A stretch of DNA of 44,786 nt. Source: Syntrophorhabdus sp. GTDB taxonomy: Bacteria; Desulfobacterota; Syntrophorhabdia; Syntrophorhabdales; Syntrophorhabdaceae. The notes beneath the pieces are model-generated. The model saw only the letters and a program-made list of their open reading frames with translations, searched no databases and had not been told where the DNA came from. Made by a program: the position numbers and the translations under genes. Below, one piece after another: positions 32,153-44,444 of the stretch; position 1 is the first letter of the stretch; each line of letters begins with the position of its first letter. The DNA lies in NCBI GenBank assembly GCA_012719415.1, contig JAAYAK010000313.1:1-44786 (forward strand), in the 5' to 3' direction.

Positions 32153-33484
32153 ATGACGCCGGAAAAGAGAAGAGACGCGATCGTTGATATTTTCAGGGCA
32201 GGGCTTCGGGCTGTTGATCCGGGGCGGTCCGTGAGGGAGCATATGCCTCATGTGTTCAACGTGTGCCGGGAGACGGGTGTCACGGAGGTGGAGGTCATCG
32301 CCCTCGGCAAGGGCGCGGCCACCATGGCGAAGGCGGCCATGGACGAACTCAACGACAAGGTCCACGCCAGGGGGATCGTCCTTACGAAGTACGGCCACGC
32401 CCATGGTGTTGTCTTTCACGGCAACGTGGAGGTCTTCGAGGCGGGACACCCCATACCGGACGAGGCGGGCCACGCGGCGGCGCAGAGGATCCTGAGGGTC
32501 CTTGAGGACGCCGACGAGACAATGCTTGCCCTCTTTCTCATCTCCGGAGGCGGCTCGGCGCTTCTCGCGTCCCCCGCGGAGGGCATGACCCTTGCCGACA
32601 AGCAGGCCGTGACGGACCTCCTGCTCAGATCCGGCGCCAGCATAGACGAGCTCAACACGGTGCGCAAGCACCTCTCCCGGGTAAAGGGCGGCAGACTGGC
32701 GAAGGCCGCCTACCCCGCCCACGGTATATCCCTTATCCTCTCCGATGTCATCGGCGACCGCCTGGACGTCATCGCCTCGGGCCCCACGGCGCCCGATCCC
32801 TCGACGTACGCGGAGGCCATCGATGTCCTCGGCAGGTACAACCTGAAGGACAAAGTCCCCGCCAATGTCATGAAGATACTCCTTGACGGCGCCGCCGGTA
32901 CCTTCCCCGAGACCCCGAAGAAGGGCGACCCCGTCTTCGCGAACTTCGAGAACATCATCATAGCCGGCAACCAGAAGGCCACAGCCGCCGCCGAAGCACG
33001 CGCGATCGAACTCGGCTTCAACCCCGTCGCCCCCGCCAACAACGTGGAGGGCGAAGCCAGCAAACTGGGCGCCCGCTACGCCCGCGCCGTCAGGTCCACC
33101 CAGAGATGGATAGGCAACGACCCCCAACGCCAGAGCATGTGCTTCATCTACGGCGGCGAACCGACGGTAACGGTGAAGGGGGACGGCAAGGGGGGGCGGA
33201 ACACGGAGCTGGCACTGGCCTTCGCCATCGCCGCTGACGGTATGGAGGGCGTCACGTTCCTCTCGGCGGGTACCGACGGAACGGACGGGCCCACGGATGC
33301 CGCGGGGGCCATAGTGGACGGGGGGACGGTGAAGCGAGGGAGAGAGAAGGGGCTCGACGCGCGGGAGTACCTGGAGAGGAATGATTCGTACAGCTTCTTC
33401 AAGGAAACGGGAGAGCTATTGATAACGGGGCCGACGGGGACGAACGTGATGGACCTCGAGATCGTCCTTATTGAGCGCCCTTGA
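32153..33484 (+). CDS. gck: Glycerate 2-kinase (GckA/TtuD, MOFRL family)
   Basis: Phosphorylates D-glycerate to 2-phosphoglycerate. From ATG 32153 (MTPEKRRDAIVDIFRAGLRAVDP) the product has 443 residues, normal for the family. The N-terminal domain has VIALGKGAATMAKAAMDEL, the conserved GHPIPDEAG loop and LISGGGSALLASPAEGMTLADK. The C-terminal MOFRL domain has IYGGEPTVTVKGDGKGGRNTELALAFAI and FLSAGTDGTDGPTDAAGAIVDG. An upstream in-frame start would run through the repeat array and promoter, so I reject it. The last 264 bp are duplicated as a fragment at 37451-37714. Confidence 0.92.
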   Translation: MTPEKRRDAIVDIFRAGLRAVDPGRSVREHMPHVFNVCRETGVTEVEVIALGKGAATMAKAAMDELNDKVHARGIVLTKYGHAHGVVFHGNVEVFEAGHPIPDEAGHAAAQRILRVLEDADETMLALFLISGGGSALLASPAEGMTLADKQAVTDLLLRSGASIDELNTVRKHLSRVKGGRLAKAAYPAHGISLILSDVIGDRLDVIASGPTAPDPSTYAEAIDVLGRYNLKDKVPANVMKILLDGAAGTFPETPKKGDPVFANFENIIIAGNQKATAAAEARAIELGFNPVAPANNVEGEASKLGARYARAVRSTQRWIGNDPQRQSMCFIYGGEPTVTVKGDGKGGRNTELALAFAIAADGMEGVTFLSAGTDGTDGPTDAAGAIVDGGTVKRGREKGLDAREYLERNDSYSFFKETGELLITGPTGTNVMDLEIVLIERP

Positions 33485-33522
33485 AGGGCGCGTTAGAGCC
33501 GTTGGAAGGTGGAAGAAAAGAC

Positions 33523-33625
33523 GGCTTGAATGGCTTGAGCCGTTTGAACAGCTTGAGCGTTAACAGATAGAAAGACTTGAAGACTTACCTCACGCCCTCG
33601 CGTCGCAGACGGGAATGAAAGACAC
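33523..33625. repeat. Intergenic repeat remnants between gck and the AbiE-like module
   Basis: Several CTTGA-type units (33523-33560) are followed by a short piece of the palindromic repeat family (CTCACGCCC ... GTCGCAGACGGGA, about 33590-33610). No gene is visible in 33485-33741. Confidence 0.6.
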
Positions 33626-33688
33626 CGCACAGAGACCCCGCGCAGGTTATCCTCCTGAACCCCGAGGTTTGATCTGTTTGGCTTGCTT

Positions 33689-33712
33689 TATAATACTCAA
33701 GTGTATTATACT
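33689..33712 (+). promoter_or_regulatory. Promoter with overlapping operator for the AbiE-like module
   Basis: TATAATAC (33689-33696) and GTATTATA (33703-33710) form an 8-bp inverted repeat over two possible -10 boxes, TATAAT and TATACT (33707-33712). TTGCTT at 33683 lies 18 bp before the second. An operator over the promoter is usual for self-regulated toxin-antitoxin modules. Confidence 0.5.
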
Positions 33713-33741
33713 GCAATCATCTGATGGTAATGGAGGGTGTG

Positions 33742-34656
33742 ATGGGAGTCAAATCGTTCGACGAGGGCAGGATCAAATCCGCTGAGGTTATCCAGCTCAT
33801 CACGCTCTACAACCTCTTTTCAAGGAAGGAAAGCAGGAATATCATCTTTCAGGGCGGCACCGCGTTGCGATGGTTTCATGGGAACGAAAGGTTTTCCGAG
33901 GACCTGGACTTCGTGACATCCCTTAGCATGACGGAGCTGACGGGTCTGCTTAATTCCCTTGCCGTCAGCATCGAAACAGGCATCAAGGCCCAATTCGGTC
34001 CCGGGGCCTTCACGCTGAGACAGAAGGACAGGGGGAGAGAAGGGTCTGTCACGGCTTTTGTCGAGTATGCTTCGGAAGGGCAGCGCGGGAAAACCATGGT
34101 GAAACTGGAGTTCGAGAGGCTGAAGGCGGGCGCCTCCCCCGGGCAGGAACAGGTGATCCTTTCCTCGGCGCCGGCGGTTTCGTATTTCATCAGGACCGGC
34201 CAGGTCATGTTCCCGCCCGGACGCGTCGTCAACATCGAAACGGTGGAGGAGATCTTTTCCGACAAGATCAGGGCCCTCCTGGAACGCCGCTACCTCAAAG
34301 GCAGGGATCTCTACGATATCTGGTTTATGACGAAGACGCTGAGCCTGACACCCGATATCGGGCTGGTGAAGAGGAAACTGGAGATGTACGAGCATCCTTT
34401 TGCGCTTACGAGGGAGCCGGGTTATTTCCCTCAACTGGCACAAAACCCCGAAAGTGACGAGGCGGCCAGGGCTCGCGCGGAGATCGACAGGGACCTCAGC
34501 CGGTTCATCCACGAAGACGTGATGAAGGTCCTCAGGAAGGACAGCTTCCAACCGATCCTCGCCGCAACCGGTGAAGCATTCGAGAAACTCCTCGGGGAGG
34601 GCCTCGATCTTGCCGGGTACCGAACCGTCGGCAATGAACGGGAAACGGGGTCATGA
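33742..34656 (+). CDS. AbiEii-like nucleotidyltransferase toxin (type IV TA)
   Basis: Member of the AbiEii/AbiGii nucleotidyltransferase family. The signature FQGGTALRWFHGNERFSEDLDFVT combines the GG-(S/T) loop with the metal-binding D-x-D pair. Further family features are the EEIFSDKIRALLERRYLKGRDLYDIWFM segment (K-x-R-A and R-D-x-x-D). I choose ATG 33742 (MGVKSFDEGR), behind GGAGG, which gives 304 residues; earlier in-frame ATGs exist at 33724 and 33730. It overlaps the next gene by 4 bp. The toxin comes before its antitoxin, opposite to the classical abiE order. Confidence 0.85.
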   Translation: MGVKSFDEGRIKSAEVIQLITLYNLFSRKESRNIIFQGGTALRWFHGNERFSEDLDFVTSLSMTELTGLLNSLAVSIETGIKAQFGPGAFTLRQKDRGREGSVTAFVEYASEGQRGKTMVKLEFERLKAGASPGQEQVILSSAPAVSYFIRTGQVMFPPGRVVNIETVEEIFSDKIRALLERRYLKGRDLYDIWFMTKTLSLTPDIGLVKRKLEMYEHPFALTREPGYFPQLAQNPESDEAARARAEIDRDLSRFIHEDVMKVLRKDSFQPILAATGEAFEKLLGEGLDLAGYRTVGNERETGS

Positions 34657-35228
34657 GCAGGCAGACGAGCTTCGCGGTACTGGAGAAACTGCCCAGGCTC
34701 TTCACCTACGCCGACGCCGGGCAGCTCACCGGCAACGCCAACGTCTTCCTGACCCGGGCGCTGAAGGTCGGATATGTGACCCGGCTGGCGAAAGGGTGCT
34801 ATTTCAACGCCCTGATCTTCAGGAGTGAGCCCCCCACCGTGGAGGAGGTGGCATGCTTCGTCCGGATGCCGACATATGTCTCCTGCGAATGGGCTATGAA
34901 CTACCACGGGCTCTTGCTCCAGGTTCCCCTGACATGCACGGCCGTCACGCTGCACTCCACGTACGGGGCACGCAACAGGATCAGCTACGGGAACCGCATG
35001 ATCGAGTTCTCCTCGATCGCCGACAAGCTGTTCTTCGGGTTCGACACGAGAGACGGGGTCAGCATCGCCACCGCCGAGAAGGCTCTCCTCGACGCCGTGT
35101 ACCTCAGGAAATATGTCCCCTTCAGGGACGAACTGGAAACGGATGTCCTCGACCCCGCAAAGCTCAAAGAAATGGCGGCTCCCTTCCCGTCCACAACCCG
35201 TAACATGGCACTTTCATTGATCCCATGA
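34653..35228 (+). CDS. AbiEi-like antitoxin / transcriptional regulator
   Basis: The 191-residue product begins with a winged-helix region (LPRLFTYADAGQLTGNANVFLTRALKVGYVTRLAKGCYFN), as in AbiEi antitoxins that repress their own promoter. A central EWAMNYHGLLLQVPLTCTAVTLHSTYG and TAEKALLDAVYLRKY match the AbiEi-type C-terminal domain. It overlaps the toxin gene by ATGA. The product probably neutralises the AbiEii-like enzyme and binds the palindrome at 33689-33710; both are inferences. Confidence 0.78.
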   Translation: MSRQTSFAVLEKLPRLFTYADAGQLTGNANVFLTRALKVGYVTRLAKGCYFNALIFRSEPPTVEEVACFVRMPTYVSCEWAMNYHGLLLQVPLTCTAVTLHSTYGARNRISYGNRMIEFSSIADKLFFGFDTRDGVSIATAEKALLDAVYLRKYVPFRDELETDVLDPAKLKEMAAPFPSTTRNMALSLIP

Positions 35229-35331
35229 AACGAACCGCTGGGAGGGACATATGCGAAACATCTCGAGAGACGCCATAGCCAGGTGCGGACGTGTTTGTGA
35301 TTCGGGGGAAGTGAACATTGGAGGCGAGTGA

Positions 35332-36120
35332 ATGGTTGGTGCTATCGCGGGTGATATTATTGGGTCGGTGTATGAGGCGCATCCTGTCAAGATGAAGGAT
35401 TTCCCTCTTTTTCACCCCCGGTGCCGTTTCACCGATGATTCCGTGCTCACCATCGCGGTGGCCGAGGCCATTTTGACGGACGGGGACTACCGCCGCTCAG
35501 TGTGGGAGTTGGGTCGCCGGTATCCGTATGCGGGGTACGGCGGCGACTTCAGACGCTGGCTGAACTCGAGTTCCCCCGAACCATACAACAGTTGGGGCAA
35601 CGGCTCCGCCATGCGGGTCAGTCCCGTGGGGTGGGCATTTAACAGCATCGACGAGGTCCTCACCGAGGCCGCCCGGACGGCGGAAATATCCCACAACCAC
35701 CCCGAAGGCATCAAAGGCGCACAGGCCGCAGCATTAGCCGTGTTCCTGGCCAGGACGACAGGGGACAAAGAGCTCATGAAGAAGGAAATATCCGAACGCT
35801 TCGGCTACGACCTCAACCGCACGGTCGACAGCATCCGCCCATCCTACGGCTTCGACGTATCCTGCCAGGGCACGGTACCGGAAGCCATCATCGCCTTCCT
35901 CGACGCCAACGACTACGAAGACGCCATCCGCAACGCCATTTCTCTTGGGGGTGATAGCGACACGCTTGCGTGTATCACAGGGGCGATTGCAGAAGCATAT
36001 TACGGGCCGGTTGCGCAGAGTATCTTCGATAAGGTTAAGGTGATTTTGCCGGGGGACCTGTGGGGGATTGCGGAGGGGTTTTGCGGAAAATACGGACCCG
36101 TGTATGTGTGGAAGGGCTAA
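35332..36120 (+). CDS. ADP-ribosylglycohydrolase family protein (copy 1)
   Basis: ARH/DraG-type enzymes remove ADP-ribose from proteins, nucleic acids or small molecules. The 262-residue product has the metal-site motifs GAIAGDIIGS near the N-terminus, FTDDSVLT (the T-D-D metal ligands, about 33-40) and GGDSDTLACITGAIAEA (D-S-D, about 208-212), all intact. The ATG follows GGAGGCG. It is about 87% identical by eye to the copy at 39829-40608, and some 45 bp upstream are also shared. Its neighbours are TA modules, one of which might ADP-ribosylate or otherwise modify targets, but I see no ADP-ribosyltransferase partner. Confidence 0.9.
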   Translation: MVGAIAGDIIGSVYEAHPVKMKDFPLFHPRCRFTDDSVLTIAVAEAILTDGDYRRSVWELGRRYPYAGYGGDFRRWLNSSSPEPYNSWGNGSAMRVSPVGWAFNSIDEVLTEAARTAEISHNHPEGIKGAQAAALAVFLARTTGDKELMKKEISERFGYDLNRTVDSIRPSYGFDVSCQGTVPEAIIAFLDANDYEDAIRNAISLGGDSDTLACITGAIAEAYYGPVAQSIFDKVKVILPGDLWGIAEGFCGKYGPVYVWKG

Positions 36121-37450: not shown

Positions 37451-37714
37451 TTTGCCATAGCTGGGGACGGGATGGAAGGCGTCACGTTCCTGTCGGCGGG
37501 TACGGACGGGACGGACGGTCCGACGGATGCGGCAGGGGCGATAGTCGACGGGGGGACGGTGAAGAGAGGGAAGGAGAAGGGGTTGGATGCAAGGGACTTT
37601 TTGGAGAGGAATGATTCGTATAGCTTCTTCAAGGAAACGGGGGAGCTATTGATAACGGGGCCGACGGGGACAAACGTGATGGACCTCGAGATCGTCTTGA
37701 TCGAGAGGCCGTAA
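37451..37714 (+). pseudogene. gck: Fragment of glycerate kinase (last 87 codons)
   Basis: The region encodes the C-terminal MOFRL part of glycerate kinase (FAIAGDGMEGVTFLSAGTD to the end EIVLIERP). It differs from 33221-33484 at only about 4 of 87 residues. Upstream of 37451 the homology stops abruptly at a GACGTCCCACTGGG sequence, and there is no start or N-terminal domain. It is a leftover of a segmental duplication that also copied the ARH gene. Confidence 0.88.
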
Positions 37715-37723
37715 GAGACGAAA

Positions 37724-37983
37724 AGACCTTATCTCACGCCCGCTTCGCTAGAGTCCGCAGAGGGCACAGAGAAATGCATAAAAGATTGCGGCCAGATCGC
37801 GGAACCTCCCACGATCTGGCCGCCTTTGCATCCCGTCTGCGACGGGAGGCAAGACATAGGGTCCTCTCTCCCGCCGAAGGGCGGGCCGAGAATGCCGCCT
37901 GATCCTGGGAGGCTTCGGGATCTGGCGGCGTCCTTTCTCTGCGCTCTCTGCGGTCTTGAGCGAAGCGGGCGAGAGGCAAGTCT
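37724..37983. repeat. MITE-like palindromic element, copy 1
   Basis: About 260 bp bounded by an imperfect inverted repeat of roughly 50 bp (37724-37773 with 37934-37983; GCCCGCTTCGCT ... AGCGAAGCGGGC). Inside is a 12-bp hairpin of GCGGCCAGATCG/CGATCTGGCCGC. A CCCGTCTGCGACGGG palindrome occurs inside and again at about 37999-38013. No transposase is encoded. Related copies lie at 39578-39762 and 40625-40755. Confidence 0.75.
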
Positions 37984-38099
37984 TTGATGCTTCGCATCCC
38001 GTCTGCGACGGGAGGGTAATGCACCACAAACGGGACTGCCTTTTTAGACGATGAAGGGCGTCTTCTTGGAATTATATTATATCATATGATAACTTATGA

Positions 38100-38127
38100 T
38101 TGATTATTTATCATAACGTGGTATAAT
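38100..38127 (+). promoter_or_regulatory. Promoter/operator of the MqsR-like/Panacea module
   Basis: TTGATT (38100-38105), 16 bp, and a perfect TATAAT (38122-38127). The region is AT-rich and palindromic: TATCATATGATA upstream, and TTATGAT/ATCATAA around 38094-38116, overlapping the -35. These are probable antitoxin binding sites. Confidence 0.6.
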
Positions 38128-38162
38128 GAATCTGTAGCAGGAATTCTATCAAGGGGCGGGTA

Positions 38163-38540
38163 GTGACTGAGGAGAAGCGGGAGGCAGTCAAGGCATTCCT
38201 GAGGGTTTTCAAGAAGGTTGCGCAGGAGCAGGGCATCTACTTTGTCACGCGAGAGGGTTTCATGGAAGCCATGGAATGGTTGGGTTTTACGAAAGCCAAC
38301 TGCCGTGATGAGATCTTGAACCTCACCGTCGACGATTACTGCGAGGGGCCGGGCCCAGACAGGGACATGCCCGGTGAAGTGTGGGTCTTTGGGATAAACA
38401 CGAGTGGTACAGACATATATATCAAGCTGAAACTGGCGCCGGTCAGGTCGCAAACCATAGCGAAGTGCCTGTCGTTTCACCCGGCAAAACATCCGCTTCG
38501 TTTCCCTTTCAGAGATGAAAAGAAAGGAGAGAAGAAATGA
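38163..38540 (+). CDS. MqsR-like toxin
   Basis: 125-residue protein starting at GTG behind AAGGGGCGG. The segment GFTKANCRDEILNLTVDDYCEGPGPDRD...GEVWVFGINTSGTDIYIKLKLAP and the end KCLSFHPAKHPLRFPF match the MqsR-type RNase-fold toxins often paired with a zinc-finger/HTH antitoxin. MqsR is a ribosome-dependent mRNA interferase; activity here is inferred. It overlaps the antitoxin gene by ATGA. Confidence 0.7.
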   Translation: MTEEKREAVKAFLRVFKKVAQEQGIYFVTREGFMEAMEWLGFTKANCRDEILNLTVDDYCEGPGPDRDMPGEVWVFGINTSGTDIYIKLKLAPVRSQTIAKCLSFHPAKHPLRFPFRDEKKGEKK

Positions 38541-39538
38541 GAATCATCTGCCCATACTGCGAAGACGTTAAGGACGTGGAGGTGGTCAACGCCACTGAAG
38601 AGATCAAGGTGAAAGGCGAGCGCATAGAAGTTCCCGTCACCTATTACAAGTGCTCGGCCTGCGGCGAAACTTTCGACGACCCCAAGGCTGGCGGGGATCC
38701 TCTGGAAAAGGCCTATACGGAGTACCGCTCCCGGCACGGGATGCTCCAGCCCTGGGAGTTCAAGGACTTTCGAAAGAGACATGGCCTGACCCAGAGTGAG
38801 TTCAGCAGGTTGCTTGGCTGGGGTCAGGTAACCCTCAATCGGTACGAGAACGGGGCATTGCAGGACGAGGCCCATGACAAGGAAGCCCGACTCGCGATGG
38901 ACCCTCGGAACCTGATCAATCTAGTAGAGAAGACGCCGTCCGCGCTCAGCGACCGGAAAAGGGAGCTGTTTCTCGAGAACCTCAGGAGAGAAGAAGAGGA
39001 GACGTTCTCCTTCGAGAGGATCTTCGAGGAGCGCTTCGGGAAGTACGAGGCGAACGAATTGAGCGGCTACAGGCATCTCGACGTGTCGAGGGTTCTGAAC
39101 GCGATACTCTTTTTCTGCAAGGGGGGGGATTTCAAAACGAAGGTGAACAAGCTCCTCTTCTATGCCGATTTCAGTCACTTCAGGGAAAAGACCACATCAA
39201 TAACGGGAGCCCGCTATGCGCATGCCACACATGGCCCCGTGCCTGACAACTACGAACGCTATTTCGCTGAACTCATCGGAAACAATTCACTGAAAGTCGA
39301 AGAAGTGCCCTGCGGATCGGACCATATAGCGGAGAAACTCATAACGATCAGGACCCCCGACCTGTTCTCATGGTTTTCCGAGAATGAAGTCAAGACACTG
39401 ATCACGGTCAAGGAGTTCTTCAAGGATTACACTGCGACGGCAATACGGGATTTCTCCCACAAGGAGAAAGGATACCAGGAAACAGCGGACGGCCAGTGTA
39501 TTTCGTATGGATATTCTGACGCCCTACAGATTCCGTGA
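38537..39538 (+). CDS. MqsA/YgiT-type zinc-finger HTH antitoxin fused to a Panacea (DUF4065) domain
   Basis: 333 residues. A zinc finger at the N-terminus (CPYC and CSACGE), then a Cro/XRE-type HTH (DFRKRHGLTQSEFSRLLGWGQVTLNRYENG, about 75-105), a linker, and a C-terminal Panacea domain (about 190-330: VNKLLFYADFSHFREKTTSITGARYAHATHGPVPDNYE). Panacea domains neutralise many unrelated toxins. The HTH likely represses the promoter at 38100-38127. The gene is preceded by AAAGGAGAGAAG and overlaps the MqsR-like gene. Confidence 0.85.
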   Translation: MRIICPYCEDVKDVEVVNATEEIKVKGERIEVPVTYYKCSACGETFDDPKAGGDPLEKAYTEYRSRHGMLQPWEFKDFRKRHGLTQSEFSRLLGWGQVTLNRYENGALQDEAHDKEARLAMDPRNLINLVEKTPSALSDRKRELFLENLRREEEETFSFERIFEERFGKYEANELSGYRHLDVSRVLNAILFFCKGGDFKTKVNKLLFYADFSHFREKTTSITGARYAHATHGPVPDNYERYFAELIGNNSLKVEEVPCGSDHIAEKLITIRTPDLFSWFSENEVKTLITVKEFFKDYTATAIRDFSHKEKGYQETADGQCISYGYSDALQIP

Positions 39539-39577
39539 GTGGAGACAGGTCCTGGGGGGGGGCGGAAAAGACGAAAA

Positions 39578-39762
39578 GACTCTATCTCTCGCCCGCTTCG
39601 CTCAAGACCGCAGAGGGCACAGAGAAATGCATAAAAGATTGCGGCCAGATTTCGGAGCCTACCAAAATCTGATCCTGGGAGGCTTCGGGATCAGGCGGCG
39701 TCCTTTCTCTGCGATCTCTGCGGACTTGATCCCGTCTGCGACGGGAGGGCGAGAGGCAAGTC
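39578..39762. repeat. MITE-like palindromic element, copy 2
   Basis: About 185 bp with the same outer arms (CTCGCCCGCTTCGCTCAAGACCGC ... GGGCGAGAGGCAAGTCTTT) and shared inner sequence (GAAATGCATAAAAGATTGCG) in the same orientation as copy 1. It contains a CCCGTCTGCGACGGG palindrome. With copy 1 it brackets the MqsR-like/Panacea module as direct repeats. Confidence 0.75.
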
Positions 39763-39828
39763 TTTGATACTCTTTATCCCGTCGGACGTGTTTGTGATTT
39801 GCAGGAAGTGAACGTCGGAGGTGGGTGA

Positions 39829-40608
39829 ATGGTTGGTGCTATTGCGGGTGATATTGTTGGGTCGGTGTATGAGGCGCATCCTATCAAGACGAAGGATTTT
39901 CCGCTTTTCCATCCCCGGTGCCGTTTCACCGATGACTCCGTTCTTACCATCGCGGTAGCTGAGGCCATCATGACGTACGGGGACTACCGCCGCTCAGTGT
40001 GGGAGCTGGGCCGCCGGTATCCGCACGCGGGGTACGGCGGCGACTTCAGGCGCTGGCTCAGCTCCAGTTCCCCCGAACCATACAACAGCTGGGGCAACGG
40101 CTCCGCCATGCGGGTAAGTCCCGTGGGGTGGGCATTCGATAGCGTCGACGAGGTCCTCACCGAAGCCGCCCGCACGGCGGAAATATCCCACAACCACCCC
40201 GAAGGCATCAAAGGCGCAGAGGCCGCGGCGCTGGCCGTGTTCCTGGCCAGAACAACGGGGGACAAAGAGCTCATCAAGAAGGAAATAACCGAACGATTCG
40301 GCTACGATCTCAACCGCACGGTGGATGGCATCCGCCCGTCGTACAGCTTCGACGTATCGTGCCAAGGGACAGTACCGGAAGCCATCATCTCCTTCGTGAG
40401 CGCCGACAACTACGAAGACGCCATCCGCAACGCCATTTCTCTTGGGGGTGATAGCGACACGCTCGCCTGCATCACGGGCGCCATCGCCGAAGCGTATTAC
40501 GGTCCGGTTGGGCAGGAGGTCTTTGACAAGGTGAAGGCGGTTTTGCCGGGGGAGCTGTGGGGGGTTGTGGAACGGTTTTGCGGGGAATACGGGCCGACGT
40601 ATTTGTAG
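39829..40608 (+). CDS. ADP-ribosylglycohydrolase family protein (copy 2)
   Basis: 259-residue paralogue of 35332-36120, roughly 87% identical by eye, with all metal-site motifs kept (GDIVGS, FTDDSVLT, GGDSDTLACI). The shared sequence begins about 45 bp upstream (CGGACGTGTTTGTGATT) and ends near the stop. The ribosome site is GGAGGTGGG. Differences cluster in the last 60 codons, so the copies have drifted under apparent constraint rather than decayed. Its parent pair partner is the gck fragment at 37451. Confidence 0.9.
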   Translation: MVGAIAGDIVGSVYEAHPIKTKDFPLFHPRCRFTDDSVLTIAVAEAIMTYGDYRRSVWELGRRYPHAGYGGDFRRWLSSSSPEPYNSWGNGSAMRVSPVGWAFDSVDEVLTEAARTAEISHNHPEGIKGAEAAALAVFLARTTGDKELIKKEITERFGYDLNRTVDGIRPSYSFDVSCQGTVPEAIISFVSADNYEDAIRNAISLGGDSDTLACITGAIAEAYYGPVGQEVFDKVKAVLPGELWGVVERFCGEYGPTYL

Positions 40609-40624
40609 GAAGACTGAAGACTGG

Positions 40625-40755
40625 AAGAATTATCTCACGTCCGCTTTGCTCGAGGGTGTGGAGGACACGAAGAGACGAAATAAAAGATCCCGGTCTGATG
40701 ATTCCGGAGCCCACCAGAATCAGGCCGCCTTCGCATCCCGTCTGCGACGGTAGGG
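40625..40755. repeat. MITE-like palindromic element, copy 3 (partial)
   Basis: Shares TATCTCACGTCCGCTTTGCTCGAG at the left, the TAAAAGAT segment, an inner hairpin around CGGTCTGATGATTCCGG ... CAGAATCAGGCCG and the CCCGTCTGCGACGG motif with copies 1 and 2. The right outer arm is missing. The rest of 40609-40919 shows no gene. Confidence 0.6.
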
Positions 40756-40919
40756 AGAGACGCCATAAGGAGACAGTTTTCCTGGAAGGAGAGTAAGCGC
40801 TGACGAGCATTGTTTTGGCAGTACCTATCATCATTCCTGGACTGCCATTGCCAACGGCACAGAGAACACGGGAGAATGTGAAAATCAGAAGGGCCCAAAG
40901 TCCCCTGCGCCCAGCGGAT

Positions 40920-41144
40920 CTAATCGATCTTCATGAGTTTTTCTCCAAGAACAATGGCCACGGCGTGGGTTCTGTTTTCGGCATCGAGTTTTTTCATAAT
41001 GTTGTCTATGTGAAACTTTATTGTTCTCTCGCTGACCTCGAGGATTGCAGCAATATCCTTTGTGCTCTTTCCACTCATCAAGCAACGAAGCATCTCTCGC
41101 TCCCGTACAGAGAGCGGAGGGAATTGCGCAGATGCTTTCTTCAT
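40920..41144 (-). CDS. Small LuxR/GerE-type HTH protein, possibly a truncated paralogue
   Basis: 74 residues consisting only of a LuxR-type DNA-binding domain (LSVREREMLRCLMSGKSTKDIAAILEVSERTIKFHIDNIMKKL). It closely matches the C-terminal domain of the LuxR protein at 41465-42226. A GAGGGAGG element is 12 bp upstream of the ATG. It could be a working GerE-sized regulator or the remnant of a full LuxR gene; no sensor-domain remnant is readable upstream. The region 41145-41420 has no other gene. Confidence 0.6.
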   Translation of the reverse strand: MKKASAQFPPLSVREREMLRCLMSGKSTKDIAAILEVSERTIKFHIDNIMKKLDAENRTHAVAIVLGEKLMKID

Positions 41145-41421
41145 AATGCCATGTACCCTCCCTCAGACGCATAACAATGAAACGAGGTTGCGGGGTGTTC
41201 TGGCTTCTCCTTTCAGGACATGTGTACCGGTATATGCTAATCGGCTTACGGCATCCAGACAACTGTCCGAAAGTACGGGTGAGGGAGACGCGTTTCAAGA
41301 AGTCACCCCTTTTCTCGAGAACACATTCTGAGCTGATCAAATGAAGTGCGGTTTTCTTCCACGCTGGTCCTATGGGTTAGTTGCCTGCCCGACAACTCTG
41401 CTCGACAACTAGTCAATTTGC

Positions 41422-41450
41422 TTGAACATATTCCGGAAATGGCTTAGAAT
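41422..41450 (+). promoter_or_regulatory. Sigma70-type promoter of the LuxR solo
   Basis: TTGAAC, a 17-bp spacer and TAGAAT. Transcription would begin near 41457, leaving a leader of about 8 nt before GTG 41465 and no room for a ribosome site. Confidence 0.55.
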
Positions 41451-41464
41451 TTTCTCACTCGATC

Positions 41465-42226
41465 GTGAAAATACAGGACCTGACAAAGAATGAAGCAGTC
41501 TCTTTGCTCGAATTGATACATGATGCCACACGATGCACTCAGGACAACGAGATCGAGATTCTCATTGGAAAACTGAATCGGCTTGTACCTTTTGAGAAAG
41601 CGGGTGCCATGCTGGGAAGGGTTAACCTGGCGGGCAAGATTACGGCCGTGAGCGTCAACCACAACTACCCGGACCAATTTGTAGATGAATATGTCAAGCA
41701 GAGGTTCCATGAAATTGACCCCTATGTAAAGGATAGCTTTGGAGTCTATGACCTGCAGTATTGGTCGGATATACTCAAGCGTTACGTTGAGCCCCGTGAA
41801 CTCTACAAGGGGGCGTTTGGATTGTGTCGGGATTTCGGTCTTGATGCTACGTGGGAGGGCAAGGGATACAGTTGTGGCATAAAGAACCTGAACGGCGATG
41901 AGAATGGTGTTTTGCATTATTACGGACTTTCCAAGAGAGAGCGGCACAAGACCATCTTATCACTGTTTTCCCCTCATCTCCATGAGGCGATGAGCCGGAT
42001 ACTGGGCAAGGCCCGTTCTGATCTGCCACCCCTGAGCAGCCGGGAGAAAGAGATCTTAAAATGGCTTATGGAAGGCAAAAGCACATGGGACATCTCGACC
42101 ATCCTGCAGATCAGCGAGCGGACGGTAAAGTTCCACATAGACAACACCATGAAGAAGCTTGATGCGGTCAACAGAACCCATGCCGTGGCCATCGCGCTGA
42201 GAGAGAAGCTTGTTGAGCTTTGCTAA
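41465..42226 (+). CDS. LuxR-family regulator with autoinducer-binding domain (LuxR solo)
   Basis: 253 residues: an autoinducer-binding-type domain (about 20-165), then a LuxR HTH (about 187-250, LSSREKEILKWLMEGKSTWDISTILQISERTVKFHIDNTMKKL). Conserved LuxR pocket positions are partly kept: Tyr in VDEY, the D-P pair in EIDPYV and Trp in YWSD. The usual first Trp (W57 of TraR/LuxR numbering) reads Phe in DQFVDEY. No LuxI synthase is in the window. It may sense an acyl-homoserine lactone from neighbours or another ligand. The start is GTG 41465 with a very short leader. Confidence 0.85.
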   Translation: MKIQDLTKNEAVSLLELIHDATRCTQDNEIEILIGKLNRLVPFEKAGAMLGRVNLAGKITAVSVNHNYPDQFVDEYVKQRFHEIDPYVKDSFGVYDLQYWSDILKRYVEPRELYKGAFGLCRDFGLDATWEGKGYSCGIKNLNGDENGVLHYYGLSKRERHKTILSLFSPHLHEAMSRILGKARSDLPPLSSREKEILKWLMEGKSTWDISTILQISERTVKFHIDNTMKKLDAVNRTHAVAIALREKLVELC

Positions 42227-42310
42227 GCTGCAGGAGCATCTTGGGGTCACAGGCCACAGGCCAGGAGGACTACAGGATATCCCCCTAGGCTCCCTAGTGA
42301 CCGGGGGAAC

Positions 42311-42483
42311 CCCTGGCCTCGCAGGGAACCCCCCGGTCCGTTCTCAATCCATATTGCTTTTCTTCAGGGAAAATGAGGTGTCTGATCCTTCTGTGGGTTG
42401 AGTTATTTTCTTGCTAACGATGTCCCACTGGGCCCCCTGGCCTCGCAGGGAACCCCCCCGGCCCGTTCTCAATCCGTATTGCT
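42311..42483. repeat. Two direct repeats of about 48 bp in the gap before the R-M pair
   Basis: 42311-42358 and 42435-42483 share CCCTGGCCTCGCAGGGAACC, then CCGG-Y-CCGTTCTCAATCC-R-TATTGCT, with few differences. The GATGTCCCACTGGG just before the second copy (about 42419) resembles the sequence at the gck fragment junction (37431). The gap 42227-42607 has no supported gene. Probable mobile-element debris. Confidence 0.65.
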
Positions 42484-42607
42484 CCCTAGGGTCCGCTGCT
42501 CTTTGGCCTTCCATTTTTTGACGCCTTAAGCTATGATAGACGTAGTAGCGGCTGTGGTGAGCCTCTATATATTACCTATGAGACAAACATTTGTCCGACA
42601 GAAAGAA

Positions 42608-43537
42608 ATGCCAACCTTCCTTGGCCAGCCCCAGCTTAATGGCACAAAATATTCTCTTGACACTAATACGATGAGCCCGGAAAAGCCCGAGTTATTTTAT
42701 AAACATCCAAATGGGGAGATTTGGATTGGCGACTCAGTGGCTTGGCTGAAATCATTGCCGAAAGACTCGGTGGACTTGGTCTTTGCCGATCCGCCGTACA
42801 ATATAAAAAAAGCCGATTGGGATAATTTTGAATCTCAACAAGAGTATATTGAGTGGTCTCTAAAATGGATCGAGCCCGCAGCGACGGTTCTGAAAGAAAC
42901 GGGAACACTCTATATATGTGGATTCTCGGAAATACTCGCGGACCTAAAAGCTCCTTCAATGAAGTTTTTCAAGAGTTGTCGATGGATTATTTGGAATTAC
43001 AAGAACAAGGCAAATTTAGGCAAAGACTGGGGCAGATCGCATGAGAGTATTTTGCTTTTTAGAAAATCGAAACAATTTACTTTCAATGTGGATCTGATTA
43101 GAATCCCGTATTCAAGGCACACCCTAAAATATCCGGACCACCCGCAAGCGTTGACGAGTCAATACGGCAATGGGAAAAATCATATTTGGAAACCACATCC
43201 GGGTGGTGCTAAGCCTCAAGATGTTATCGACATTCCGACGACCTGCAACGGTATGCACGAAAAAACCGCACACCCAACGCAAAAACCGGAAGAACTGTTG
43301 AGGAAGATAATTCTAGCGTCCTCAAATGTCGGCGACATGGTGTTAGATCCGTTTTTGGGTTCTGGGACGACGGCGGTTACCTCAGAACAACTGAAACGAA
43401 AATGGCTGGGTTGCGATACAAGCCGTGAATATCTTGATTGGGCCGTCAAGCGCATTGAATTAGTGGAGAATTGGCCCATAGAAAAATGGATTCAATATGA
43501 TTTGGGAAACATGCAAAGAAGAAACTCTATAAAATAA
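42608..43537 (+). CDS. DNA methyltransferase (N4/N6, beta-type motif order) of a type II R-M system
   Basis: Motif IV ADPPYN comes first and motif I DPFLGSGTT near the end, the beta-class order for N6-adenine or N4-cytosine methyltransferases. GDSVAWLKSLPKDSVDLVFADPPYNIKK and HPTQKPEELLRKII are typical. From ATG 42608, behind AGAAAGAA, it has 309 residues; earlier (42533, 42578) and later (42671) in-frame starts are possible. It is AT-rich compared with everything to its left, a sign of transfer. The recognition sequence is unknown. Confidence 0.85.
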   Translation: MPTFLGQPQLNGTKYSLDTNTMSPEKPELFYKHPNGEIWIGDSVAWLKSLPKDSVDLVFADPPYNIKKADWDNFESQQEYIEWSLKWIEPAATVLKETGTLYICGFSEILADLKAPSMKFFKSCRWIIWNYKNKANLGKDWGRSHESILLFRKSKQFTFNVDLIRIPYSRHTLKYPDHPQALTSQYGNGKNHIWKPHPGGAKPQDVIDIPTTCNGMHEKTAHPTQKPEELLRKIILASSNVGDMVLDPFLGSGTTAVTSEQLKRKWLGCDTSREYLDWAVKRIELVENWPIEKWIQYDLGNMQRRNSIK

Positions 43538-43547
43538 GGCTGAAATT

Positions 43548-44444
43548 ATGAGGCTGAGAGCCATCGTTGGTAAAGCTACCAATAAAGATAATTTCACCAA
43601 TTTGAAGGGATATGTTAATTTCTGTCGAACATATCTCGATTACATTGCAAGCAATCTCCAAGCAACCATCGTTTCCCAAAACGAAAACTACTACAATTTC
43701 TACCAATATGGCCGCGAAGGAGACTATCAGATAACGAGGCCAATTAATTCCAATTTGATGTACGACATCAAGTCTTTTCCTAAGAAGGGCGAAGAATTTC
43801 TCAGGCTCCTTAAGGTCGCAAGAGAGATTGGTTCAAAAGATGTCGAACAAAGAAACATTCTGTTACACTCGGTCTACACCATTCAACAATGTATTGGCGC
43901 CGCACTTGATGCGCTACCGGCCGGTAAATCCAACCGCGCAAGAAAATTAAACGGCGATTTATTTGAGAATTTTGTACGGTTGATCATCAAAGAAATAGGT
44001 ATTCCTTGTCGGGCCGGGGTGGTTCAAGTCCCTGTCCTTATGAACGGAGCAAAACTGTTCGATATGAGCTATCAACACGATCTTATAGTCCAGTACAAAG
44101 ACAGTATAAAGGTCATCGGGTCAATAAAGACATCAAGCAAAGACAGAATCGACAAAATATTCGTCGATAAATTTCTTTATAACAAACTGACAGAAACCGT
44201 AACTCCGCATATAGCCATTTTTCTCAACGATGTGCAACGCAAGAATACAAGCAGAGAGAACGAGTATGGAATAAACGCGACTTTTTTGCCAGGGCATTTC
44301 AAGGGGTATACAGTAAAGCTTAACCCTTTGGACGGAGTTTATTATTGCGATATTCGGCCCAATATGAAAACGGAAAACATACTAAAAGACCATATCAAAA
44401 CCTTTGATTACTTACTCTGTGAAGATATTTGGAGTTTCATCTAA
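43548..44444 (+). CDS. Probable type II restriction endonuclease
   Basis: 298 residues, starting 11 bp after the methyltransferase stop in the same direction. I do not recognise the exact family. A PD-(D/E)XK-like site is suggested by HDLIVQYKDSIKVIGSIKTSS (Asp, then the S-x-K strand at about 185-208) after GDLFENFVRLIIKEIG, a helix with the usual preceding Glu. Position next to the methyltransferase and equal AT-richness support a restriction role. Activity is not proven by sequence. Confidence 0.68.
   Translation: MRLRAIVGKATNKDNFTNLKGYVNFCRTYLDYIASNLQATIVSQNENYYNFYQYGREGDYQITRPINSNLMYDIKSFPKKGEEFLRLLKVAREIGSKDVEQRNILLHSVYTIQQCIGAALDALPAGKSNRARKLNGDLFENFVRLIIKEIGIPCRAGVVQVPVLMNGAKLFDMSYQHDLIVQYKDSIKVIGSIKTSSKDRIDKIFVDKFLYNKLTETVTPHIAIFLNDVQRKNTSRENEYGINATFLPGHFKGYTVKLNPLDGVYYCDIRPNMKTENILKDHIKTFDYLLCEDIWSFI

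Follow-up and report, generated by a model that had tools for sequence, protein, structure and literature searches.

A LuxR solo and a divergent HTH-only paralogue in Syntrophorhabdus sp., a candidate signal-blind competitor

In Syntrophorhabdus sp., a gene for a full-length LuxR-type receptor (P0002) lies beside a divergent gene (P0001) for a small protein with the HTH of the same family, which raises the question of whether the small protein could occupy the DNA sites of its neighbour. The window (the whole stretch of DNA that was analysed, 44,786 nucleotides) makes up the entire contig G000:C313, which belongs to a 3.7-Mb genome in 329 contigs that is 99.23% complete. Both ORFs were found, divergent and 320 bp apart, where an earlier note on this DNA had placed them:

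40920..41144, minus strand: P0001, 74-aa HTH-only LuxR-family ORF (GerE, 79.2 bits, residues 10-64, equal to 40953-41117)
41145..41464, no strand: divergent intergenic region of 320 bp, which would carry both promoters (from the sequence)
41157..41161, minus strand: GGAGG, possible ribosome-binding site 12 nt 5' of the P0001 ATG (read from the sequence)
41261..41280, plus strand: lux-box-like place, 10/12 bases of a V. fischeri-like consensus, a lead only
41422..41450, plus strand: sigma-70-like hexamers TTGAAC-17 nt-TAGAAT, 14 nt 5' of the P0002 GTG (pattern scan)
41465..42226, plus strand: P0002, 253-aa LuxR solo (Autoind_bind and GerE)
41573..41989, plus strand: Autoind_bind (sensor) of P0002 (domain match)
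42029..42196, plus strand: GerE HTH of P0002 (domain match)

Five sigma-70-like sites were observed in the intergenic region compared to 1.5 in shuffles, and a dyad scan of 41145-41464 gave nothing exceeding shuffles. Five binding-site consensuses were scanned, of which the V. fischeri-like one alone gave a notable place (41261-41280; its score is tied with two other places, the three being the best in the window). P0002 starts with GTG, and no GGAGG-like stretch occurs within 40 bases 5' of it.

The pocket of P0002 and the search for luxI

P0002 matched Autoind_bind at 42.7 bits (cut-off 23) and GerE at 78.8 bits; its best solved relative is CviR (3qp5; 111 bits, residues 6-245), which is also the best solved relative of P0001 (56 bits). 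The pocket residues were read from alignments to CviR and 16 full-length relatives, with the TraR-numbered list of conserved residues taken from the accessible part of PMC4338825. Eight of the nine residues on that list (W57, Y61, D70, P71, W85, G113, E178, L182 and G188) are kept in P0002, the exception being W57, which is Phe (F72); in the pocket, Y61 corresponds to Y76, D70P71 to D85P86, W85 to W100 and G113 to G134. The earlier note's account of the pocket, with Phe for the first Trp and both D-P and one Trp retained, is borne out. A short insertion ahead of the G113 position is common to P0002 and its best match, L052. A predicted structure of P0002, built from a three-row alignment, was set aside (mean pLDDT 44.2).

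Seventeen full-length members were aligned, leaving out two 260-aa ORFs that match P0002 in the HTH only (L068 and L069, both in the 47-row tree below); the W57 position is Trp in all 10 members adjacent to luxI. Among the seven members lacking an adjacent luxI, Trp is found in three (L045, L046 and L071, the last with a luxI elsewhere in its genome) and another aromatic residue in four (Phe in P0002; Tyr in L052, L059 and L061). The association of replacement with luxI adjacency gives a Fisher p of 0.015, which is not an independent test because the rows are related. CviR has a cognate AHL synthase. Unlike P0002, CviR (3qp5) carries Trp at the W57 position. The alignments support reading the altered pocket as a mild change, since W57F is conservative and has been recorded before in LuxR solos (PMC4338825). 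AvhR and the W57F groups of that paper, according to its accessible part, resemble P0002 in having Autoind_bind and GerE, no luxI in the genome and Phe at W57; AvhR, unlike P0002, has D70 and W85 changed too.

No match to luxI (PF00765) was found in the same genome, although, given its completeness and its 329 contigs, this absence is not absolute. In the initial search of this genome the control genomes had no match either, and the search was therefore repeated with positives: 18 of 395 genomes of the phylum gave matches (17 above the cut-off), and among 12 chosen genomes G147 and G217 matched, with none in G000, G001, G031, G156, G247, G169, G040, G077, G347 or G273. As the luxI search works in relatives and returns nothing here, P0002 can be called a LuxR solo, in agreement with the earlier note, whose further term “quorum-signal” decoy claims too much, since no synthase for a signal was found.

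Relatives of P0002 are scattered. At E<=1e-12 they occur in 19 of 395 phylum genomes and at E<=1e-11 in 3 of the 46 genomes of the class, while Autoind_bind is present in 2 of the 12 genomes of the genus (the own genome counted each time); ten full-length relatives, across nine genomes, adjoin luxI. P0002 thus comes from a patchy, often luxI-linked subfamily and is itself without a synthase. The divergent pair turned up in none of the 45 other genomes of the class (E<=1e-11) and was seen in its own genome only. The two whole-phylum protein searches covered 395 genomes drawn evenly, with up to 6 (P0002 query) or 14 (P0001 query) candidates per genome. In named genomes, searched with patterns derived from the sensor, 46 stretches contained two confirmed loci; 600 pattern matches in viral contigs contained no confirmed relative of P0001; and 521 plasmid records matched P0002, all below 60% identity (25 of the 521 listed).

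Origin and constraint of the small gene

As the earlier note had noticed, P0001 is without a sensor: GerE is its only domain, no sensor family was matched, and its frame (80 aa) is the sole short one among 16 GerE matches in the genome, the other 15 lying in frames of at least 170 aa. Its best match among the 395 phylum genomes is P0002 (95 bits; next 66.8), a score that takes the likeness of the two beyond chance, and the two agree at 48 of 71 aligned residues, with codon positions 1, 2 and 3 matching at 49, 61 and 30 of 71. The tree (47 rows, but 68 columns, few according to a program warning) grouped P0001, P0002 and a PAS fusion of G273 (96/96) and paired P0001 with P0002 weakly (90/28). 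Seven loci of the own genome (L004-L010) were tried, five of which (L006 to L010) had no ORF above the score limit and are not in the tree. This placement puts P0001 in the quorum-type HTH clade, nearest to the adjoining full-length LuxR, and a local origin through inverted partial duplication is likely.

The two proteins are unevenly alike. In the recognition and dimerisation segment P0001 is identical to P0002 at 24 of 27 residues, the highest value of the rows compared (next 22/27) and inclusive of an identical NRTHAVAI, compared to 16 of 27 in the residues before the segment; the GKS and SERT stretches are also retained. The earlier description, “nearly the same HTH”, is therefore overstated. 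Residue differences number 3 of 27 inside the segment vs 20 of 44 elsewhere (Fisher 0.0036), and by Nei-Gojobori estimates the 35 codons preceding the recognition helix have pS 0.79 and pN 0.34, the corresponding values for the 27 codons that span the recognition and dimerisation helices being 0.70 (pS) and 0.05 (pN). With synonymous sites at or near saturation, the small gene was under constraint at the protein level for most of its life, and a fresh relic is an improbable reading of it. Gene conversion found no support as an explanation for the segment's conservation, synonymous differences being high in both parts. No sensor relic was found beside P0001 (the best tblastn match, E 0.064, overlaps P0001 itself), which argues against a half-decayed full copy. 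The segment identity lends support to a common DNA site and is not proof of it, other members of the subfamily reaching 22/27.

P0001 has changed faster than P0002: with G273 as the outgroup, 8 lineage-specific changes fall on P0001 and 3 on P0002 (p 0.23), and with six other outgroups 8-10 and 1-3. Of 25 quorum-type rows (excluding L064, a cut copy of L086 that duplicates the PAS row, though it is in the tree), 24 have Trp at one HTH position and 22 at a second, and P0001 is the sole row with both changed (W->C and W->K); the second is replaced also in L046 (Ser) and L067 (Leu). In the 21 NarL-type rows (counted likewise without L064) the second position, W201 of LuxR, is Lys in 17, Arg in 3 and Val in 1, and GerE has Lys there as well. 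Since Lys prevails in these rows, the change in P0001 may represent another activation mode and not a loss.

An accessory island and other detached HTHs

The LuxR pair sits on an accessory, defence-rich, low-GC island. GC is 0.45 in P0001 and 0.50 in P0002 vs 0.60 for bases 1-38000, and third-position GC is 0.53 and 0.61 vs 0.79-0.85 in seven backbone ORFs; the neighbours comprise an AbiE pair, an MqsR-like gene with an MqsA/Panacea-like partner, two ADP-ribosylglycohydrolases, and a type II methyltransferase with a restriction enzyme. The other 11 genomes of the genus have no match to the methyltransferase at E<=1e-40, and 9 of them have the MOFRL gene that lies left of the island (E<=1e-50). 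When the flanks of relatives were compared, AbiEii in G010 was the sole island gene found, MOFRL pieces aside. The low-GC methyltransferase and restriction enzyme (PDLC03436, 379 bits) occupy 42533-44444, 3' of the P0002 gene, and a direct repeat of about 50 bp (94%; 42310-42358 and 42434-42483) separates them from it. That the LuxR pair is tied to the restriction genes is only a thought.

The window also contains a segmental duplication (33221-36114 and 37451-40612; 87-88% DNA identity), with paired stretches 33221-33475/37451-37705 (87%) and 35286-36114/39783-40612 (88%). Each unit contains the 3' end of a MOFRL-domain gene and an ADP-ribosylglycohydrolase gene, and the toxin-antitoxin module enclosed by them differs: unit one has AbiE, unit two the MqsR/MqsA-Panacea-like pair. 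In the latter (38163-39538) an MqsR-like ORF, whose match of 22.1 bits falls short of the cut-off, precedes a gene for a 333-aa protein in which an MqsA-like part and HTH are joined to a SocA/Panacea domain. Noncoding repeats, some with a palindromic CCCGTCTGCGACGGG core, are interspersed around the toxin-antitoxin units (33591, 37707-38029, 39560-39762 and 40630-40768).

Detached quorum-type HTHs were found elsewhere in the phylum. Another genome of the genus (G001) encodes a 150-aa XRE (HTH_37)-GerE fusion (L044:1975-2427), the HTH of which groups as sister (99/97) with the HTH of that genome's full-length LuxR; this fusion, with its antitoxin-type HTH_37, lies about 540 bp after a HigB/HigA pair. 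In G273 the HTH ends a 988-aa protein with several PAS domains. HTH-only ORFs of 103 aa (G040) and 101 aa (G077), from one genus and grouped together (93/84), associate with the luxI-linked LuxRs of G217 (99/96), and G347 has a 140-aa ORF with GerE alone. In the phylum search with P0001, 4 of the 55 match rows fell in frames of at most 150 aa, its own counted. No full-length match at 1e-12 was found in G040, G077 or G347, so HTH-only proteins of this kind need no full-length partner. Sensor-only genes (Autoind_bind, no HTH) occur in three genomes of one family (G147, G222 and G398), directly 5' of a full-length luxR that is followed by a convergent luxI (L093:3375-3959, L094:2616-3260, L095:3483-4061); such genes are already known (accessible parts of PMC4338825; CerN, PMC11655674; TrlR, PMC3907764).

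What the small protein may do

We tentatively favour, at somewhat less than even confidence, a reading in which P0001 is a signal-blind paralogue that occupies the sites of P0002 and dampens it. An AHL-type LuxR would have lost its synthase partner and become a solo with a modified signal pocket, and a copy of its DNA-binding domain, or of that of a close relative, would now be the free-standing, divergently encoded protein of 74 aa, incapable of signal sensing as far as its domains tell. Because the recognition and dimerisation helices are kept, P0001 would most likely act as a dimer that needs no signal and bind the half-sites of P0002, those in the divergent promoter region between the two genes included. 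It would probably be a poor activator, since both quorum-type HTH tryptophans are lost, and so may lower or gate the output of the full-length solo. Competition for the same sites is compatible with the pattern of substitution, which is constrained and has left these helices best kept. LuxR and TraR mutants that bind DNA without activating are described as repressors in the accessible part of a review (PMC13043044). Several observations count against this reading: the pair is on record from a single genome, P0001 changes faster than P0002, the second Trp is replaced in other quorum-type rows too and is mostly Lys in NarL-type ones, HTH-only relatives occur in genomes lacking a full-length match, and the dyad scan found nothing exceeding shuffles.

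P0001 may instead be GerE-like and independent, regulating targets of its own, in which case its position beside P0002 would reflect origin and not function. GerE acts as both an activator and a repressor. This reading, which we consider rather unlikely, agrees with the match of the 74-aa GerE chain to P0001 (1fse; 45 bits), with the HTH-only relatives in the three genomes lacking a full-length match and with the Trp->Lys change shared with most NarL-type rows, but it leaves unexplained why the recognition segment hardly diverged from that of P0002 when the remainder of the protein did. It is improbable that the small gene is left over from a partial inverted duplication and has no function or lost it recently: the region is prone to duplication (the 87% and 88% pairs above), the small gene changes faster than P0002 and no relative carries the pair, yet the ORF is intact and preceded by GGAGG, 48 of 71 residues are retained at or near synonymous saturation, and no sensor relic lies beside it.

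Most doubtful of all is a constitutive, signal-independent activator of P0002 targets. The C-terminal domain of V. fischeri LuxR by itself has been reported as an activator (PMC7585371, in its accessible part), and the GKS and SERT stretches are kept in P0001, but both quorum-type tryptophans are lost. LuxR and TraR mutants that bind DNA without activating are described as repressors in the accessible part of a review (PMC13043044).

Much of this has precedents: W57F solos have been recorded before, as have LuxR proteins with an HTH alone and truncated antagonists of LuxR, the last being the mirror image of the present case. GerE of Bacillus subtilis (1fse), like P0001, has a GerE domain without a sensor; PedR (model NF052366) is also HTH-only, but P0001 scores 40.1 against its cut-off of 120 bits; and HTH-only LuxR-family proteins, one encoded upstream of a luxI/luxR locus, appear in the accessible part of PMC13136126. 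P0001 differs from all of these in belonging to the quorum-type clade and being closest to the adjoining full-length LuxR. In TrlR/TraR and CerN/CerM (PMC3907764 and PMC11655674, as far as accessible) a truncated paralogue blocks a full-length LuxR, which was tested there and is proposed here. P0001 is the reverse of that type: TrlR and CerN have a sensor, are without a DNA-binding domain and act by the heterodimer route, whereas P0001 is without a sensor and competition would take place on DNA. The solos in the accessible part of PMC4338825 include none described as paired with an HTH-only paralogue, unlike P0002. Among the titles and abstracts listed, a coverage that takes in few subscription papers, none on LuxR solos with truncated or HTH-only partners describes this pairing, and none of those on luxI/luxR in Syntrophorhabdus or Desulfobacterota does so; luxI/luxR have been reported in Syntrophaceticus (accessible part of PMC5113046).

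It is possible, though we consider it unlikely, that the pair is a mirror image of TrlR, in which a LuxR receptor is checked by its own stand-alone HTH competing at the divergent promoter, as one of several independent detachments of quorum-type HTHs in the phylum and perhaps gating defence-island genes beside the type II restriction-modification pair. The parts of the locus are ordinary apart from two points. If P0001 does compete, the LuxR receptor would be under a brake that is blind to the signal and acts via DNA and not by heterodimer formation, which would reverse the arrangement in TrlR and CerN. The replacement of W57 in 4 of 7 members without an adjacent luxI vs 0 of 10 luxI-adjacent ones defines a small testable set for the ligands of solos after the loss of the synthase.
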